This document shows positions 2,138 to 59,397 of a stretch of DNA of 64,000 nucleotides, piece by piece (the stretch's first letter is position 1; every line of letters starts with the position of its first letter). The position numbers were made by a program, and so were the translations under genes. Source of the stretch: Bacteroidota bacterium (lineage in GTDB: Bacteria; Bacteroidota; Ignavibacteria; Ignavibacteriales; Ignavibacteriaceae); assembly GCA_021815405.1 (NCBI GenBank), contig JAKAGV010000003.1, positions 62,001-126,000 on the forward strand, given 5' to 3'. The notes beneath the pieces are model-generated. The model had not been told where the DNA came from and made no database searches. It was given only the letters and a program-made list of their open reading frames with translations.

Positions 2138-2605
2138 ATGAGAAAGAAAAGAGCTGATAAAAACATTTTGAAACCTGATCCAAAATTTAACGATGTTTTG
2201 GTTGCCAGGTTTATTAATTCAATTATGTACGATGGAAAAAAATCAAAAGCCCGTCACGTAGTGTATAAAGCTTTCGAAGTTATTGAAGAAAGATCAAAAA
2301 AGCCCGGACTCGAAGTTTTTAAGAAAGCTTTGAATAACGTGCAGCCAGTAATTGAGGTAAGAAGCAGAAGAGTTGGTGGTGCAACTTATCAGGTACCAAC
2401 GGAAGTTAGACCTGAGAGAAGAACTGCTTTAGCAATGAGATGGATTAAGACTTATGCAAGAGCAAGAAACGAAAAGTCGATGTCTCTTAAACTTGCATCT
2501 GAGCTTTTGGCTGCTTCAAATAATGAAGGTTCTGCAGTAAAGAAAAAAGAAGATACGCATAAGATGGCTGAAGCAAATAAAGCATTCGCACACTTTAAGT
2601 GGTAA
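2138..2605 (+). CDS. rpsG: 30S ribosomal protein S7
   Basis: This 155-aa protein has the standard S7 length and order: the N-terminal [15 protein letters not shown] segment, the [15 protein letters not shown] helix that binds 16S rRNA, and the [15 protein letters not shown] beta-hairpin that reaches the E site. S7 nucleates assembly of the 30S head. The gene follows rpsL by 5 nt and precedes fusA by 51 nt. In E. coli S7 is the translational repressor of the str operon; whether that control exists here cannot be read from this sequence. Confidence 0.98.
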
Positions 2606-2656
2606 TGATGCATAAAAAAAGATTGATTAAAGAGAATAGGAAAAAATAATTAGGTT

Positions 2657-4756
2657 ATGGCAGCAAGACTACCGATAGATAAAGTTAGAAATATAGGCAT
2701 AATGGCTCACATAGACGCCGGCAAGACGACAACTACCGAGCGTATTTTGTACTACACTGGCAAACTTCACCGGATTGGCGAAGTCCATGACGGTGCAGCA
2801 ACTATGGACTGGATGGAACAAGAAAAAGAACGCGGCATTACTATTACAAGTGCTGCTACTACCTGTTTTTGGAATAATCATCAGATAAATATTATCGACA
2901 CTCCAGGTCACGTTGATTTTACCGTGGAAGTTGAAAGATCTCTAAGAGTACTTGACGGAGCAGTTGCGTTGTTTTGCGCAGTAGGCGGAGTTGAGCCGCA
3001 ATCTGAAACAGTTTGGAGACAGGCTGATAAATATAGAGTTCCGAGAATTGCTTTCGTGAACAAAATGGATAGAACGGGCGCTGACTTTTACAATGCTCTT
3101 CAAATGATGAAGGACAGACTTGGCGCAAATGCTATTCCGATTACATTACCGATTGGCGAAGGCGATATGTTTTCCGGAGTAATTGATCTTTTAACTTTTA
3201 AAGCCCGCATGTATCACGAGGAAACGATGGGCGCTACTTACGATGAGTTCGATATTCCTGAAGATCTCATCGAAGTTTCAAATAAGTATAGAACCCAGAT
3301 GCTTGAAGCGGTTTCGGATATTGATGATACTTTGCTTGAAAAATATCTCGAAGGAAAAGAGATTAGCGAGGAAGAAATCAAAGCAGCATTAAGAAAAGCG
3401 ACTATTGATTTAAAAATAATTCCAGTTCTTTGCGGTTCCGCATTTAAGAATAAAGGTGTCCAGAAGCTTTTGGATTGTGTAGTTGACTTCTTACCGGCTC
3501 CGAATGACACAATAGAAATTGAAGCTCACCATATTGGAATTAACGACATGGTGAAAAGGAAAATTGACGATAAAGAAAAGTTTACCGCACTGGCTTTTAA
3601 GATTATGAACGATCCTTATGTTGGCAAGCTAACATTCTTTAGAGTTTATGCCGGTACTTTAAAAGCTGGTTCATATACTTACAATGCAGTAAGCGGAAAG
3701 AAAGAAAGAATTAGCCGTTTATTGCAAATGCATGCAAACCACCGCGAAGAGATTGAAGAAGTTAAGGCAGGCGATATTGCCGCTGCTGTTGGCTTGAAAT
3801 ACACAAAGACTGGCGATACTCTTTGCGATGAGCATGATGCAGTTGTTCTTGAAAAAATTGTTTTCCCGGAACCGGTTATTCAAATTGCAATTGAACCGAA
3901 AACGAAAGCTGATCAGGATAAATTATCTGATGCTCTTTCAAAGTTGTCTGATGAAGATCCAACCTTTAAAGTTAAAGTTGATGAAGAAACTGGGCAGACT
4001 TTGATTAGCGGAATGGGTGAACTTCATCTTGAAATTCTTGTTGATAGAATGAAACGGGAATTCAAAGTTGAAGCAAATGTTGGTAAGCCTCAGGTAGCTT
4101 ATAGAGAGACTATTACGCAGACGGTAAACGCCGAAGGTAAATTTATTAAGCAGAGCGGTGGTCGAGGTAAGTACGGGCATGTCTGGGTTGAATTCGGTCC
4201 GAATGAACCCGGTAAAGGTTATGAATTTACAAACGCAATTGTCGGCGGTGTTGTTCCTAAGGAATACATTCCGGCAGTATCTGCGGGTATCCAGGAAGCC
4301 TTGAGAAACGGTGTTGTAGCTGGTTTCCCGGTTGTGGATATAAAAGCTAAAATTTACGATGGGTCTTATCATGATGTAGACTCCGATGAAATTTCATTTA
4401 AGGTTGCTGGTTCGCTGGCATTTAAAGAGGCTGCCAAGAAAGGCAAGCCTATTCTTCTTGAGCCAATTATGGATGTTGAAGTAGTTACTCCCGAAGAATA
4501 TCTCGGTGATGTTATGGGAGATTTAAATTCAAGAAGAGGAAAGATTGAAGGATTTTCTGCAAGAAAAGATGCTCAAGTAATAAAAGCAATCGTTCCATTA
4601 GCTGAAATGTTCGGGTATGCAACAATACTCCGTTCAATGACACAAGGACGTGCAATATACACAATGCAGTTCGGATATTACAGCGAAGTACCCAAGAGCA
4701 TTGCAGAAGAGATTGCTGAAAAATCATTAGGTAAGAAGTCGGTAATAGCTAGTTAA
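2657..4756 (+). CDS. fusA: Translation elongation factor G
   Basis: The 699-aa protein is a full-length EF-G, the GTPase that drives translocation and, with RRF, ribosome recycling. The G domain shows G1 [10 protein letters not shown]3 DTPGHVDF and G4 NKMDR in the first 145 residues. Domains II to V follow, including the [10 protein letters not shown] and [11 protein letters not shown] segments typical of domain IV. The switch segment [11 protein letters not shown] is intact. It is encoded in the usual place between rpsG and tuf. No second EF-G is present in the window, so specialisation between paralogues cannot be judged. Confidence 0.98.
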
Positions 4757-4800
4757 TTAAAAGATTAATAATAAAAAAATATATCGCAAAGGAGATATAG

Positions 4801-6006
4801 ATGGCAAAAGAAAAATTCGATAGGAGTAAACCTCACGTTAACGTAGGTACTATTGGTCACGTTGATCATGGCAAAACCACATTAACAGCTGCCATCACGA
4901 TGGCTCTCGCAAGGAAGGGCTTATCAGAAGTCAGAACATTCGACAGTATTGATAACGCTCCGGAAGAAAGAGAAAGAGGTATTACTATTGCAACTGCGCA
5001 CGTTGAGTATTCAACTGCAAACAGACATTACGCTCACGTTGACTGTCCCGGTCACGCAGATTATGTTAAGAACATGATCACCGGTGCTGCTCAAATGGAT
5101 GGTGCAATTTTAGTTGTTGCTGCGACAGATGGACCAATGCCTCAGACAAGAGAGCATGTTCTTCTTGCTCGTCAGGTAGGCGTTCCTAGAATTGTAGTAT
5201 TCTTAAATAAAGTTGACATGGTTGACGATCCTGAATTGATCGAGCTTGTCGAAGTTGAATTGAGAGACCTTTTAAATTATTACGAATTTCCTGGTGATGA
5301 AATTCCGATTGTTAAAGGTTCTGCTTTAAAGGCTTTGGAAGCTGGCTCAAGCAACGCACCAATAGAAGACGAAAGATATAAATGCATCTGGGAGCTTATG
5401 GATGCTGTTGACAGCTACATTCCGATTCCTCAGAGAGAAACAGACAAACCTTTCTTAATGCCAGTTGAAGACGTTTTCTCTATTACCGGTCGCGGTACCG
5501 TCGCTACTGGTAGAGTTGAAAGAGGTCAAGTTAAGCTAGCTGAAGAAGTTGAACTTATTGGTCTGGGTGTTCACAAGAAAACAGTTGTCACTGGTATTGA
5601 GATGTTCCGTAAGGAACTCGATTCTGCAATGGCTGGTGATAATGCCGGATTATTGCTACGCGGCGTAGACAAAAAAGAAATTGAAAGAGGAATGGTACTT
5701 GCAAAAACCGGTTCCATTACTCCTCATAAGAAATTTGAAGGTTCTATTTACGTATTATCAAAAGAAGAAGGTGGACGTCATACTCCATTCTTCAACGGAT
5801 ATAGACCTCAGTTTTATTTTAGAACAACTGATGTTACCGGTGTTGCTACTCTTCCGGAAGGAACCGAGATGGTTATGCCTGGTGATAACGTTAAATTAAC
5901 TGTAGAACTGATTTCCGAAATAGCAATGGAAGAAGGCCTACGCTTCGCTATTCGTGAAGGCGGCAGAACAGTTGCATCAGGTGTTGTTACGAAGATAATT
6001 GAATAA
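4801..6006 (+). CDS. tuf: Translation elongation factor Tu
   Basis: The 401-aa EF-Tu delivers aminoacyl-tRNA to the ribosomal A site. Visible motifs are G1 [10 protein letters not shown], the switch segment ERERGITI, G3 DCPGHADY and G4 NKVDM, followed by beta-barrel domains 2 and 3 ([36 protein letters not shown]). A clear Shine-Dalgarno AAAGGAGA lies at about 4788-4795. The gene closes the str segment; a strong hairpin at 6022 separates it from rpsJ without a T-tract, so continued transcription into the S10 genes is likely. Confidence 0.98.
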
Positions 6007-53830: not shown

Positions 53831-54028
53831 ATGGGACACATTGAGTTAATCATGAATGAAGAGGAAAAGGATATAATTTTGCAGGCTTTACAGGAATGCC
53901 TTTCCGAATTAAACATGGAAATTGCTGATACTGAACAGATGAATTACCGGGAAGAATTAAAGTACAAAAGAACAGTAATTAAGAACTTTATCAACCAGCT
54001 AAAAGAACATCCTATTGTTGCAGGTTGA
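53831..54028 (+). CDS. Small conserved-looking acidic protein, 65 aa
   Basis: From ATG 53831, after the GAGGTG ribosome-binding site, the protein reads MGHIELIMNEEEKDIILQAL in front, followed by heptad-like charged helices (ECLSELNMEIADTEQMNYRE; LKYKRTVIKNFINQLKEH). It is likely a helical hairpin; no family assignment is possible from sequence alone. A GTG at 53825 is an alternative start. The stop lies 22 nt before the convergent HAD gene ends. Confidence 0.7.
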   Translation: MGHIELIMNEEEKDIILQALQECLSELNMEIADTEQMNYREELKYKRTVIKNFINQLKEHPIVAG

Positions 54029-54050: not shown

Positions 54051-54833
54051 TTAATTTTTAAGAAAAATATCTTCCAACACTTCGAGTACAGAAAAAAGAT
54101 TCTGCGATTCGAAGGATGGTAAAATCTTTGTATCCGGTAAAAGAGGATATTTTGTCTTTTCTGTAAATACTAAGATTCCTGTTCCTCCAATCGACTGTGC
54201 TCCGCCAATATCATTTTCTAAATCATCTCCGATCATATAAAAAGAATTGTCTTCTGAATAACCCAGCATCTTTAAGGCTGATTTAAAATAAAGCGGAGAT
54301 GGCTTTCCGATTACCGTTGCTTTCTTACCGGCTGCATATTCAATAGCAGCCACAAACGCACCTGCATCAAGAGCTAAGCTTTTGCCCTCCGGCTGCCAGA
54401 ATTTATTTTTCTGCATCGCGATAATTTCAGCGCCATCATAAACTTTCCTGAAGATATCATTAAGGATCGGATAAGTCCATCCTTCACCCAAATCCCCAAT
54501 TATAACTGCGTCAGGATTTTCATCTTCAATAAAAGGTTCAAACTCCTTTTGAACATTTTGAATACAATAAACAGAAACGTGATAGTTCTTTTCTTTAAGA
54601 AAGCGGATTGTGGCGTCAACGGTGGTCATAGCATTTACTGTAAAAGTAACTCCGTTTTCATTTAAGAATTGAATTACCTCGCGGGAAGTATTTCTTGTTG
54701 AATTACTGATGATGCATGAAGGAATATTATTCCGATTTAGGAAGTTGAAAAGTTCAAATGCGCCATCAGCAATTTTATCCCCGATTCTTATTACGCCGTC
54801 AAGATCGATTAAAACGGGATTATAGTTTATCAT
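54051..54833 (-). CDS. HAD-superfamily IIA hydrolase (NagD-like)
   Basis: The 260-aa protein has HAD motif I with Asp10 and Asp12 in VLIDLDGVIRIG, motif II ISNSTRNT, the motif III lysine in VIGKPSPLYF, and motif IV MIGDDLENDIGGA. The C2 cap is the NagD type used for phosphosugars and nucleotides. It is transcribed with the DUF6580-like gene and the BtuB-like receptor, 51 nt downstream of the former, so it might take part in cobamide or nucleotide metabolism; that is an inference from position only. Confidence 0.88.
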   Translation of the reverse strand: MINYNPVLIDLDGVIRIGDKIADGAFELFNFLNRNNIPSCIISNSTRNTSREVIQFLNENGVTFTVNAMTTVDATIRFLKEKNYHVSVYCIQNVQKEFEPFIEDENPDAVIIGDLGEGWTYPILNDIFRKVYDGAEIIAMQKNKFWQPEGKSLALDAGAFVAAIEYAAGKKATVIGKPSPLYFKSALKMLGYSEDNSFYMIGDDLENDIGGAQSIGGTGILVFTEKTKYPLLPDTKILPSFESQNLFSVLEVLEDIFLKN

Positions 54834-54884
54834 TTAGTTTAAGTGAGATTCACCGAAAAGATGGATCTCACTCATCTAACTATT

Positions 54885-55415
54885 TTATGCGTTAGTTTGT
54901 GCAAGCACCGGGAACTTCATCCGTGCAAACTCAAATGCGCCGAAGAAAACTCCAACGTAGAATAAATCACCAAGCGCTGTATGCGAGAAGAACGGAATCG
55001 CAGCAGTGAAACATTCGGCTAAACCGGCAATAGTCATAGGATACATGCTTCCGCTAAGCCAAACTGCAAAGTTTGTAATTGCAAAAAACAAAACAGAAGA
55101 AGAAACCGAAGCCAGAAAAATATTCGAGACTTTCCTCTTCTCTCTTAAACTGAATCCAATTACAACTATTAAAGCAAAGCTCAAATAAACAGCCCACATT
55201 GTTGAGTGGAAGCCGAGAATTAAATCCGAAAGAATCATCGCGGCGAATGGAACAACAAAAGATAATTTTTTATTTGTGAAATACGCTCCGCCGAATAACG
55301 CCATTGCAGCGATTGGTGTAAAGTTTGGATAATGCGGCAGAAGCCTTAAAACAGCGCCTGCGAATATCATCCCTGTTATTACTAAAAATTTTGGATTTAC
55401 CATTCTCTTTTCCAT
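54885..55415 (-). CDS. DUF6580-like membrane protein, possible vitamin-transport S component
   Basis: The 176-aa protein has about five or six transmembrane helices (LVITGMIFAGAVLRLLPHYPNF; AAMALFGGAYF; AVYLSFALIVVIGFSL; and others), a layout similar to DUF6580/ECF-S-type proteins. It follows the BtuB-like gene, 86 nt downstream on the same strand and under the same cobalamin riboswitch, suggesting a role in corrinoid passage through the inner membrane. No ECF ATPase or T component is in the window. Start ATG 55415 has AAAGGAAA upstream. Confidence 0.75.
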   Translation of the reverse strand: MEKRMVNPKFLVITGMIFAGAVLRLLPHYPNFTPIAAMALFGGAYFTNKKLSFVVPFAAMILSDLILGFHSTMWAVYLSFALIVVIGFSLREKRKVSNIFLASVSSSVLFFAITNFAVWLSGSMYPMTIAGLAECFTAAIPFFSHTALGDLFYVGVFFGAFEFARMKFPVLAQTNA

Positions 55416-55501
55416 TTTATTTTCCTTTCAATTTAATAAGAGCGTTCAACTTTAGTATTAAAATATAATTAATTTTTTGTCTCTGTAAAATGATTTAATA
55501 C

Positions 55502-57442
55502 CTATAAATTAAAATTTATTCCAAAGTAACCGGATAATCCCGGAGTAGCGTAACCGTAAACTTGTTCATAATATTTATTGAATAAATTATCCACTCTTCC
55601 AAAGATTTTAATCAAATTAGATAGTTGATAGGTGGCGGCGATATTAACAACTGTATAATCAGGAAGAGTGATTCTTTGTACAGGGTAAACATTGAAATTT
55701 TCGTCGTCTCTTTTACCGACATAAATTATGTCCGCATTCAAATTTAATTTTTCTAAGAATGAATAATTAAGATCCAATCCAACTTTGTCCTTTGGGCGAC
55801 GCAGCAGCGGCAAACCGGATTCCGTAGAGTTTGGGCTTTCATCTTTTGAATTTGTGTAAGTGTAATTTAATCTTAAGCTGAAATTTCCCAGTGGATTTGA
55901 CCTCAAGTAGACTTCGATCCCGTTTGTTACTGCTTTATTAATATTAATTGTTCTGAAATTATTATCGAAACCGAAAAGATTCGTATAGTTATTCGAGAAA
56001 TAATTTATACCTGCGGTCAATTCAGTGCTAACGAGATATTGTTCGATACCTGCATCCCAACCGAAGCTTTTTTCGGGCTGCAAGTTAGGATTGCCGTATG
56101 CCGGATCAAACAAATAAAACAATGACGGCGATTTAAAGCCGGTTCCGATGGTGGCTTTAAATTTCGTTCCAATTGCCCAAATAAAATAAGCTGGTGCAAC
56201 TCTATATGTAACGATAGAACCGAAGCGGTTATGTCTATCCCACCTAATCCCGGCGGAAAAGAAAAAACGGTTTTCGACATTAGTTAAATCCTGAAGATAA
56301 ACTCCTGTTGTATTTTCATTTTTATTCGGAAAGATACTGCCGAATGAACCATAGGTAGTAGAATTATAAAAATAATTTGAAACAGCATTCTCAGTTGCGC
56401 TTTCTATTCCAAAGGTAAGCGTATTAGATTTAGAAAGTTCAAAATTGTTCTGCCAATCAAACTGAAGTCTGTTCCCGTCGTAAATGCTGCTTGATGAAGC
56501 AGGATTGTTTAATGTAGAGTCGAAACTGTATTCCCGTACATTTCGGAAATAAGAAATTCCTGCTGTTTGATTCCAGAAACCTCCGAGTAAATTCAACTTG
56601 CCTTCAATTCTAAACGACGGCTGCTGGAGATGGTAAACATAAGTCGGATCATCGCCTAATTCACCACCGTGCTGGTCCAAAGCAGTGTTCGCATTTGTAA
56701 ATCTTAAATAAAAGTTAAGATCAAAATCTTTTGTGAATTGATATCCAAATCTGGATGAAATATTAAAATTTGAAGTGCCGTCCTTTTCAGTATTTCCATA
56801 TTTAGATGATGCTGACGAAAAACCAGCAGTATAAAATTTGCTTGCAGTAATTGAATAATTGAATGCATTCAAACTGCCAGATAAGCCTGCCAACCCTCTA
56901 AAAGAATTATAAGAGCCGCCTTCAGTAGTAAGGAAAAATTTTGGTTTACCAAAACCTTGTTGAGTGATAATGTTTATAACTCCAGCCATCGCGTTGGAGC
57001 CGTACAAAGTACTTTGAGGTCCGCGGAGAATTTCTATACGCTTGACGTTGTCCAATGGAAGATCAGCAAAGTCGAAAGTATTTTCGGGATCATTCGGCAT
57101 ATTTACATCAACACCGTCAATAAGAATTAATGTTGAGCCGGGATCGCCTCCGCGCATATAAATATTAGTTAAAGAGCCTGGTGCGCCTTGCTGAGTAAAG
57201 CTTAGTCCGTATTGATCCTGCAGTAATCCATACACCGTTGAGTTGCCTTTATTCGCGATGTCTGCAGAATCTATAACTGAAATAGAACTGGCAGCTTCAA
57301 TCTCCAGAATTTTAGTTTTGGTTGCCGTCACTACAATTTCAGACATCTTATAAATTTTTGTTGAGTCTGCCTGTTGAGCCTCGGAAAAGGAATTTAATAA
57401 AAATACAAAAAGCAGTCCTAAAAAGAATTTTTTAGAATCCAT
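55502..57442 (-). CDS. btuB: TonB-dependent cobalamin receptor, BtuB-like
   Basis: The 646-aa protein has a signal peptide (MDSKKFFLGLLFVFLLNSFSE), TonB box MSEIVVTATK, plug domain (SSISVIDSADIANKG; IYMRGGDPGSTLILIDGVDV; LDNVKRIEILRGPQSTLYGS) and a beta-barrel ending in a C-terminal aromatic strand (LSGYFGINFNL). The cobalamin riboswitch immediately upstream strongly supports corrinoid uptake. It is likely energised by one of the two TonB-ExbBD sets in this window. RBS AGGAG is visible. DUF6580-like and HAD genes follow. Confidence 0.93.
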   Translation of the reverse strand: MDSKKFFLGLLFVFLLNSFSEAQQADSTKIYKMSEIVVTATKTKILEIEAASSISVIDSADIANKGNSTVYGLLQDQYGLSFTQQGAPGSLTNIYMRGGDPGSTLILIDGVDVNMPNDPENTFDFADLPLDNVKRIEILRGPQSTLYGSNAMAGVINIITQQGFGKPKFFLTTEGGSYNSFRGLAGLSGSLNAFNYSITASKFYTAGFSSASSKYGNTEKDGTSNFNISSRFGYQFTKDFDLNFYLRFTNANTALDQHGGELGDDPTYVYHLQQPSFRIEGKLNLLGGFWNQTAGISYFRNVREYSFDSTLNNPASSSSIYDGNRLQFDWQNNFELSKSNTLTFGIESATENAVSNYFYNSTTYGSFGSIFPNKNENTTGVYLQDLTNVENRFFFSAGIRWDRHNRFGSIVTYRVAPAYFIWAIGTKFKATIGTGFKSPSLFYLFDPAYGNPNLQPEKSFGWDAGIEQYLVSTELTAGINYFSNNYTNLFGFDNNFRTININKAVTNGIEVYLRSNPLGNFSLRLNYTYTNSKDESPNSTESGLPLLRRPKDKVGLDLNYSFLEKLNLNADIIYVGKRDDENFNVYPVQRITLPDYTVVNIAATYQLSNLIKIFGRVDNLFNKYYEQVYGYATPGLSGYFGINFNL

Positions 57443-57567
57443 AGAAGTTACTCCTATATAAATTGTTATTGGTTTAGGTTGTAACTTCGGGGAAATAAGG
57501 AAAGCAGAAACGTGAAAATGATTTTTGCCAACCTAACCTTGCCCGCGAAGGTCGATTATTTATTATC

Positions 57568-57722
57568 AACGGCAGGTCTCCTGGCTGAAAGCAAGTAAAG
57601 AGTAATTATTTAATTCCTGCTTATCACAGTTGCGCGTCAGTTCCGGAATTTTCCATAAGTGCTGGAAGCACCGGATTCCCTATAATTCCCGTTATTCCGA
57701 TTAAATCGGGATCGGGACACCG
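57568..57722 (-). promoter_or_regulatory. Cobalamin (B12) riboswitch
   Basis: On the - strand the B12 box GCCAGGAGACCTGCC (57571-57585) is conserved, preceded by GGGAATCCGGTGC, AATTCCGGAACTGACGCGCA and AACTGTGATAAGCAGG, in the order of the cobalamin riboswitch class. The start near 57722 (GGTGTCCCGATC) is the conserved 5' strand. It ends about 125 nt before the btuB ATG, leaving room for an expression platform. It would switch off btuB when cobalamin is plentiful. Confidence 0.94.
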
Positions 57723-57786
57723 TAAATATTTTAAAGAACGATTTTAATTTACAAAAATTTCAATCAATTACAATTTGGTAAAATTG

Positions 57787-57849: not shown

Positions 57850-59397
57850 TCATATCCTAAGTTTTGATATAAGCTCATTCTTTAGTGCGAAGAGCTTCGG
57901 CGTTAAAGAGACGTGGTATCTGTGTGGATTAATTAACCTCTTTACTCCGGCATCGAGTTGTTCTAAATCTTTTTGCCTGGTATTTCTTATTTCCTGAATT
58001 GGTGGGAAGTCATAAACTAATTTCCCTTCATTTAGAATCCTGATAAGCAATGGTTCAATTTTAGTTAAGTGCTCTTGCTTTAAAATTCTTTGCTTAGTTT
58101 GATCATTCGGATGGTGAAGAACAAGCGGATGCATTTTCTCAATATCTTCATCCTGAAGGCTCAGCAAGTCTGCCGTTGCCATTCTATTGGAATTGTATAA
58201 GCGCCATACTTGTTTGTTGCCTGGATTCGGAATTTTTTCCTGAGTCTCTGAGATTTTTATTACCGGAATTTGTTCTCCTCCATTCTGAACAGAAACTAAT
58301 TTATAAACACCTCCTAATGCAGCGTCTCCCGAAGAAGTAATTAATCTTGTCCCAACTCCGTAAGTTAAGCGATGAATTAATTTATCCGCATCCAGTCCGT
58401 GCTTCGGAGCGTCTTCCGATATTTGAGTAATGATCTGCCAGATGTTCAGTTCATCAAGCTCATTCGATAAAACAATTTTTTCTTCCGTAAATCCTGCTTC
58501 GTTTAGCATCTTTGCAGCTTGAATACTTAAGTAAGCAAGATCGCCTGAATCCAAACGGATTCCAATAGGACGATGACCTTTCTTCTTCATTTCGCCGAAA
58601 ACTTTTATCGCGTTCGGAATGCCGCTTTCAAGCGTGTTTATAGTATCGACAAGCAGTATGCAGTCATCCGGGTATAAATCTGCAAAAGCCTGGAACGCTT
58701 CCAGTTCAGTCATTCCAAGTGATAAAAATAATTGAACCATGCTGTGTGCATGTGTCCCTTTTGGCGGGAAACCTAACACATGGGATATTCCAACATTTGA
58801 TGTATAATCAGCTCCTCCGATTAAGGCTGCTCTAATACCGGCATTAGCACCTCTATCTTGAGCGCGTCTTGTTCCGAATTCTAAAAGAAGCTGATTGCGA
58901 GTTACTTCTTTTATTCGTGAAGCTTTAGTGGCAATTAATATCTGGAAATTCAATTGATTTAAAAGCGATGTTTCTAAAATTTGAGCAATTGCTAACGGTC
59001 CGGTTACAACTGTAATTGGTTCATTTGGATGAACAGTTCTTCCTTCAGGAATTGAGTCCATAGATATTGATTCAAAGCTGCTTGATTTTTTCAGCCAATT
59101 TAAAAAATCATCCTCAAATAATTTTTTACCGTTTACCGTCTTTTGAGTTGCAAGCATTTCAATTTCTTTTTCACCGAAATATGAATTCTGCATCCAGTCG
59201 ATAATCCATTCCAAACCGGCGTTTATACAGTAGCCTGCTTTATGAGAACCGTAATCGGGATATTGCCGGAAGAAATGATCAAATCGAGCTTGTCTCTCAT
59301 GAACTCCCATTTTATAATAAAGCTGAGCCATCATCAGCTGGTATTGATCGGTATATAAAATTCCTTCGGTAATATTTTGATTAAATTTCTTTAACAT
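57850..59397 (-). CDS. pncB: Nicotinate phosphoribosyltransferase
   Basis: The 515-aa enzyme makes nicotinate mononucleotide from nicotinate in the Preiss-Handler salvage route to NAD. Typical segments are [18 protein letters not shown] at the amino terminus, the active-site loop [17 protein letters not shown] with the phosphorylated-type His (His216/His218 region), and [13 protein letters not shown]. Longer than the E. coli enzyme, it is like the 500-aa family in many bacteria. It lies upstream of the riboswitch on the same strand and divergent from the H+-ATPase. Confidence 0.94.

Follow-up and report, generated by a model that had tools for sequence, protein, structure and literature searches.

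This study concerns a locus in a 64,000-nucleotide stretch of DNA (the window) from a Bacteroidota bacterium of the family Ignavibacteriaceae (GenBank assembly GCA_021815405.1, contig JAKAGV010000003.1, positions 62,001 to 126,000). A cobalamin riboswitch precedes the genes of a BtuB-like receptor, of a membrane protein of the family DUF6580 and of a HAD-type hydrolase (Table 1). The riboswitch match lies well above the gathering threshold of 31.5 bits (E 3.2e-16) and covers the model in full length (positions 1-189 of 189); RF00174 matches nowhere else in the genome. An earlier note on this DNA had ended the locus at 57722, which cuts 17 nt off the riboswitch. Its description of a riboswitch directly before the receptor and of packed genes is borne out by the RF00174 match, the common strand and intergenic gaps of 86 nt (receptor to DUF6580) and 51 nt (DUF6580 to HAD), and its assignment of the three proteins by Pfam, NCBIfam and the search against solved relatives. 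The DUF6580 protein scores 192.5 bits against PF20221 (Pfam cut-off 27). For the receptor, TonB-B12 (TIGR01779) is the best NCBIfam family with 295.8 bits, under the equivalog cut-off of 599.7, and E. coli BtuB is the best solved relative with 165.5 bits across residues 36-636, followed by CirA with 90.8 bits and a best stretch of 36-162. Therefore, the receptor is named BtuB-like.

Table 1. Features of the locus, in window coordinates.
Feature	Position	Strand	Basis
Cobalamin riboswitch aptamer (RF00174), 5' leader of the operon	57554..57739	-	Rfam, 73.5 bits
BtuB-like TonB-dependent outer-membrane receptor, 646 aa	55502..57442	-	Plug and barrel domains (Pfam)
DUF6580 six-helix membrane protein, 176 aa; proposed solitary cobamide importer	54885..55415	-	PF20221, structure model, FecCD exclusion
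Hairpin between the DUF6580 and HAD genes	54834..54884	-	Folding energy of 54828-54884
HAD-IIA family hydrolase, 260 aa; weak link to B12	54051..54833	-	TIGR01460 above cut-off

The source genome (4.97 Mb, 31 contigs, 99.98% complete) encodes six B12-binding domains, one of which sits in a methionine synthase (MetH) with the Met_synt_B12 activation domain (419.6 bits). CobS gave no match in this genome. Since B12-using enzymes are present and CobS is unmatched, the genome should import complete cobamide. At an E-value of 0.001 we found neither a FecCD permease, the type of BtuC, nor EcfT (PF02361) of the energy-coupling factor (ECF) transporters, so that both of the main established inner-membrane systems gave no match; EcfA was outside the search. 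The absence of BtuCD and ECF components, claimed earlier for the window, thus extends genome-wide to FecCD and EcfT, and a complete BtuCDF system elsewhere, which had been named as the finding that would speak against a new importer, is not indicated by any FecCD match in this near-complete genome. Because the genome uses B12 yet shows no FecCD or EcfT match, DUF6580 is the best candidate for the inner-membrane step.

The distribution of DUF6580 and FecCD was compared in 148 genomes drawn from the phylum. DUF6580 was found above the cut-off in 59 genomes and a cobalamin riboswitch in 145. Counting full-length FecCD, 51 genomes have DUF6580 only, 88 have FecCD only, eight have both and one (G136) has neither (p 6e-30). 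When every FecCD match is counted, the genomes with both rise to 15, with DUF6580 only in 44, FecCD only in 88 and neither in one. The difference lies in seven genomes with FecCD matches of only about 30-40 bits, which are probably metal permeases and were not counted as FecCD. Genome G062 (22.1 bits) was dropped from DUF6580 and G001 from EcfT, both being below the cut-off. By majority per family, 15 families have DUF6580 only, 17 FecCD only, one both and none neither (p 1.5e-8). In families f13 and f23 the lone genome without DUF6580 has FecCD; in family f6 the genome without DUF6580 has neither. Of the FecCD-only genomes, 69 have a listed riboswitch, and in 35 of them FecCD lies within 10 kb of it; of the genomes with both DUF6580 and FecCD, five have one, a small number, and none shows FecCD that close. 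Therefore, FecCD in the genomes with both may serve another cargo. In a second sample, 44 of the 50 DUF6580 genomes reached through 50 of 80 named-genome loci, their completeness being unknown, carry no full-length FecCD.

DUF6580 is linked to B12 genes in many phyla. Phylum linkage was scored with the listed riboswitches and that of the window; 14 of the 59 DUF6580 genomes have none listed. Among the remaining 45, DUF6580 lies less than 6 kb downstream of a same-strand riboswitch in 14, the window included, and in two genomes a riboswitch lies within 6 kb but on the wrong side or strand. The 80 named-genome loci were scanned with a riboswitch model built from 25 riboswitches, giving 22 matches, spread over 20 loci and without exception on the same strand as DUF6580. 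One of them, in L136, is only a partial match at the border of the locus, 7 kb away from DUF6580, and the riboswitch follows DUF6580 in L112 and, for one of two, in L137. Pfam placed a ribonucleotide reductase with a TSCPD domain and a PduO-type adenosyltransferase near DUF6580 in L085 and L099, CobO in L114 and L118, DUF71/Diphthami_syn_2 in L110, L129 and L139, and Peripla_BP_2 in L108 and L140. The reductase in L114 is of the anaerobic NrdD type. DUF71 has been tied to B12 salvage (PMC3541065). On the family tree the linked members are spread, yet clustered beyond chance, with 12 changes against a shuffle mean of 21; alignment A1 left out L010 and alignment A3 left out 34 of the 80 named loci.

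In three loci (L062, L137 and L139) a riboswitch is followed immediately by DUF6580, and no receptor gene separates them. Such units bear on the possibility that, within the uptake operon, DUF6580 plays only an accessory role in the membrane while a different transporter, encoded elsewhere, moves the cargo. This is very unlikely in view of the units without an intervening receptor, of the exchange of DUF6580 for FecCD across the phylum, and of viral units that consist of receptor and DUF6580 only.

Further genes accompany DUF6580 in single loci. The periplasmic-binding-type gene follows DUF6580 in L108 and L140, and a gene of the same cluster (c26) is present in L106 and L110; no full-length FecCD was found there. 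Its product may feed a solitary transporter. A DUF5074 protein lies near DUF6580 in L005 (2142-3496), together with a cysteine-rich CWC protein, and in L102 (4733-5863); DUF5074 presumably resembles BtuG-like propellers. In two candidate-phyla genomes a DUF4430 protein is encoded between the riboswitch and DUF6580 (L117, 6453-6947; L127, 6589-6993), and we take DUF4430 to be linked to transcobalamin-like domains.

The candidate-phyla (CPR) class to which the genome of L117 belongs was searched separately (187 genomes). DUF6580 was found above the cut-off in 50 of the 54 genomes with a match, and at least 30 of these 50 genes lie within 10 kb and on the same strand of the genes for the B12-dependent reductase NrdJ (27) or PduO (21). 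By arithmetic, with genomes of about 1 Mb, about one would be expected by chance. CobS gave no match in any of the 50 genomes.

Six helices are present in each of the two AlphaFold2 models, one of the window protein (mean pLDDT 95.2), the other of L085 from the CPR class (93.2). When the Foldseek candidates were realigned with VIA-align, the B12-bound BtuM, a complex with cyanocobalamin, ranked first for both models. The window model aligned with BtuM at Z 14.1 and a root-mean-square deviation (RMSD) of 3.1 over 158-159 residues, with 13% identity over the structural alignment, and the L085 model at Z 14.6 and an RMSD of 2.8-3.0 over 152-154 residues. Next come S-components of ECF transporters at Z 13.1 (window) or 12.7 (L085) and lower. 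For the window model BtuM and FolT score almost alike; for the L085 model the gap is 1.9. S-components fill ranks 1-20 for the window model and 1-18 for the L085 model, and the first other protein is MreD (Z 8.2 and 9.0, respectively). For these models, the unbroken run of S-components is a firmer sign of the fold than Z alone. The same predicted fold would also suit an S-component of a conventional ECF transporter which borrows a module encoded elsewhere in the genome. We regard this as unlikely, as EcfT is unmatched in the source genome and was found in only three of the 59 phylum genomes with DUF6580, the CPR genomes lying outside the EcfT search.

In 69 aligned rows, His28 of loop 1 is conserved in 64, and position 70 of loop 3 holds histidine in 42 rows, and histidine or tyrosine in all 26 linked rows. 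The only column with cysteine in more than 30% of rows is position 135 (48 rows). As a guess, His28 or the histidine or tyrosine at position 70 may bind cobalt.

The likely cargo is indicated by CobS, the enzyme that finishes the cobamide. It was unmatched in 78 of the 80 DUF6580 genomes tested, the source genome included; among the Bacteroidota, two of 30 have it (G079 and G125). Since CobS is absent from nearly all of these genomes, the cargo should be a complete cobamide. Import of cobalt, of a precursor such as cobinamide or of a lower ligand such as dimethylbenzimidazole was considered, since S-component and CbiM-like folds serve such cargoes, and CbiM appeared at Z 8.8 in one structural list. 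Against this stand the rarity of CobS and a gene context of receptor, B12 users and adenosyltransferases, which together make such a cargo improbable; cobalt or lower ligand was set aside because CobS is mostly absent.

Relatives of DUF6580 are also present on viral contigs. A scan of IMG/VR gave 63 contigs, 23 of which carry the gene of a BtuB-like receptor immediately next to DUF6580 and in the same orientation; several of these 23 loci look like near copies of one another. The receptor and DUF6580 frames overlap or abut in 22 of the 23, and this holds as well with the first ATG as start codon. All six viral receptors tested have TonB-B12 as best family, below the cut-off. Of the 63 loci, 40 distinct ones, including all 23 with a receptor, were compared with Rfam, and the AdoCbl-II riboswitch was detected in five, four of them receptor loci. 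It lies before DUF6580 in L173, L175 and L211 as well as in L179, which has no receptor within the stretch examined, and at the junction of DUF6580 and receptor in L218. The neighbouring genes are identified as phage genes by PHROGs: a tail sheath gene in L194, one for the major head protein in L203, genes for UvsX and a single-strand binding protein in L173, and one for a replicative helicase in L176. The L185 contig measures 328 kb. No PHROG matched six phage DUF6580 proteins and one more, three queries gave no DUF6580 match in 50,697 annotated phage records, and no DUF6580 was found in the plasmid collection. The pair of DUF6580 and receptor is possibly a virus-carried B12 uptake cassette. 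The idea that phage DUF6580 serves the phage's own B12-dependent reductase was not supported, as, compared by eye, the 80 viral NrdJ loci listed, of at least that many, share no contig with the 63.

Other features were seen in the viral loci. A glutamine riboswitch stands before the receptor gene (about 2668-2734) in L203, L204, L205, L207, L208, L209 and L213, and that of L203 follows the gene for the major head protein. The freshwater-2 RNA occurs after DUF6580 in L205 (5465-5544) and L207 (5485-5559). In L169, frames resembling GroES, GroEL and NAD synthetase were spotted by eye just before DUF6580 (2297-5011).

Several observations weigh against a role of DUF6580 as cobamide importer. The importer search in the source genome covered FecCD and EcfT, with other types, such as BacA-like transporters, outside it, and the statistics of the phylum sample carry no species-tree correction for descent. 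DUF6580 is not linked to a listed riboswitch in 31 of the 45 genomes, and 10 of the 50 named-locus DUF6580 genomes have no RF00174 match under strict filters. In the CPR class, 20 of the 50 DUF6580 genes show no NrdJ or PduO linkage among the matches listed. NrdJ is above the cut-off in 148 and PduO in 135 of the 187 CPR genomes, far more than the 50 with DUF6580; therefore, other importers must exist in this class. On the structural side, Foldseek alone gave no match below E 0.16 (the best being FolT), and, according to a caution issued by the aligner, models made of helices can score a best Z around 14 even where no relative is evident. A profile of 46 members detected no solved protein at E values of 10 or less; the search covered solved chains and no BtuM profile. 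The S-component fold does not show the cargo, and the cobalt-binding cysteine of BtuM is not conserved in loop 3 of DUF6580.

Two Bacteroidota clades, family f23 and a Bacteroidales clade, are unlinked to B12 genes, and in L066 the neighbours of DUF6580 encode MutL and an amidohydrolase. Four genomes of the phylum sample (G069, G077, G126 and G132) carry two DUF6580 copies. Given these unlinked clades and two-copy genomes, the family may not be uniform in function. One possible but rather doubtful reading is that cobamides are the cargo only in clades with linkage to riboswitches or B12 genes, the unlinked Bacteroidota clades carrying something else. The clustering of linked rows on the tree fits it, as do G069, G077 and G126, in which one copy is linked and the other is not. 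On the other hand, 14 of the 17 DUF6580 genomes of family f23 have no full-length FecCD and would otherwise be left with no known importer of the types searched.

Taken together, we propose that the operon is a B12 uptake operon and that DUF6580 is very probably its inner-membrane importer, acting alone on complete cobamides. The earlier view of DUF6580 as a good candidate for the corrinoid transporter that this lineage seems to lack in its inner membrane gains from the exchange with FecCD in the 148 genomes, the B12-gene context, the fold closest to BtuM and the lack of CobS. In the proposed mechanism, low adenosylcobalamin would turn the operon on, and adenosylcobalamin would turn it off through the riboswitch. 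The BtuB-like receptor would take cobamides across the outer membrane into the periplasm. DUF6580, with its predicted S-component fold, would bind complete cobamides and move them across the inner membrane without an ATP-binding cassette (ABC) module; toppling or facilitated diffusion is the probable mode. In the cytoplasm, the imported cobamides would be trapped by adenosylation and enzyme binding.

The HAD gene is kept out of this mechanism. Pfam finds a HAD domain in its product, and the match to HAD-IIA reaches 110.8 bits (NCBIfam cut-off 100.15). The hairpin before it folds with -18.8 kcal/mol (z -3.86), has no U-tract and was not listed by the terminator scan; it is possibly a partial terminator or a stability element. 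Because this strong hairpin separates the two genes, co-transcription of HAD with DUF6580 is not certain. A HAD relative stands beside DUF6580 in only one of the 80 named-genome loci (L062), and none is adjacent to it in the family members G140 and G132. With no CobS match in the genome as well, the suggestion that the HAD enzyme may process a cobamide or a precursor is not supported and was set aside; its link to B12 is weak. A small open frame of about 65 codons on the plus strand (window about 53831-54027), spotted by eye, converges on the HAD gene. At the other end, a nicotinate phosphoribosyltransferase gene (window 57850-59397; Pfam and NCBIfam) lies upstream of the riboswitch on the same strand.

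A search of open-licence papers in PubMed Central found none that names DUF6580 or PF20221. The name BtuN has been given to a transporter beside BtuB in two genome papers (PMC8954225, PMC7038796). The passages of PMC8954225 and PMC7038796 that use this name give no sequence, so that BtuN could not be tied to DUF6580, and an older prediction under that name is possible. A comparative study of B12 regulons from 2003 reportedly predicted further transporters and could hold an earlier prediction. We consider it likely that DUF6580 is a widespread, unrecognised solitary cobamide importer, which replaces the BtuCD permease across much of the Bacteroidota, serves part of the CPR bacteria with a B12-dependent reductase and, in uncultivated phages, forms with a BtuB-like receptor a compact B12 uptake cassette for infected cells, in some cases under riboswitch control. 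If so, a small family would fill the importer gap in Bacteroidota, some candidate-phyla bacteria and others, making B12 exchange predictable from genomes, and it would offer a second model of S-component transport without an ATPase. Functional viral cassettes would mean that phages alter the vitamin supply of their hosts.

As proposed for DUF6580, the FecCD-type ABC importer BtuCDF is regulated by B12 riboswitches and acts at the step proposed here, but the two are largely exclusive in the phylum, and BtuCDF differs in fold and energy source. The ECF S-components FolT, RibU, BioY and ThiT, and the cobalamin-specific CbrT, share the predicted fold of DUF6580, whereas EcfT is unmatched in 56 of the 59 phylum genomes that carry DUF6580. 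BtuM is the closest comparison. It is reported to import B12 without an ECF module, to be mostly proteobacterial and to bind cobalt through the invariable Cys80 of loop 3, and E. coli, described in the same source, has no ECF module (PMC6072759). BtuM of Thiobacillus denitrificans (PDB 8c7p, 8ovv) resembles DUF6580 in its six helices, its S-component fold, a genome without EcfT and its occurrence with BtuB. DUF6580 differs from BtuM in the low structural-alignment identity, in that no sequence match was found and in having no conserved loop-3 cysteine; it would by hypothesis work like BtuM, but given the missing cysteine we do not assign it to that family. DUF6580 is found in Bacteroidota, in candidate-phyla and other records and on viral contigs, in contrast to the mostly proteobacterial BtuM, and the solitary import of B12 reported for BtuM is what we propose for DUF6580.

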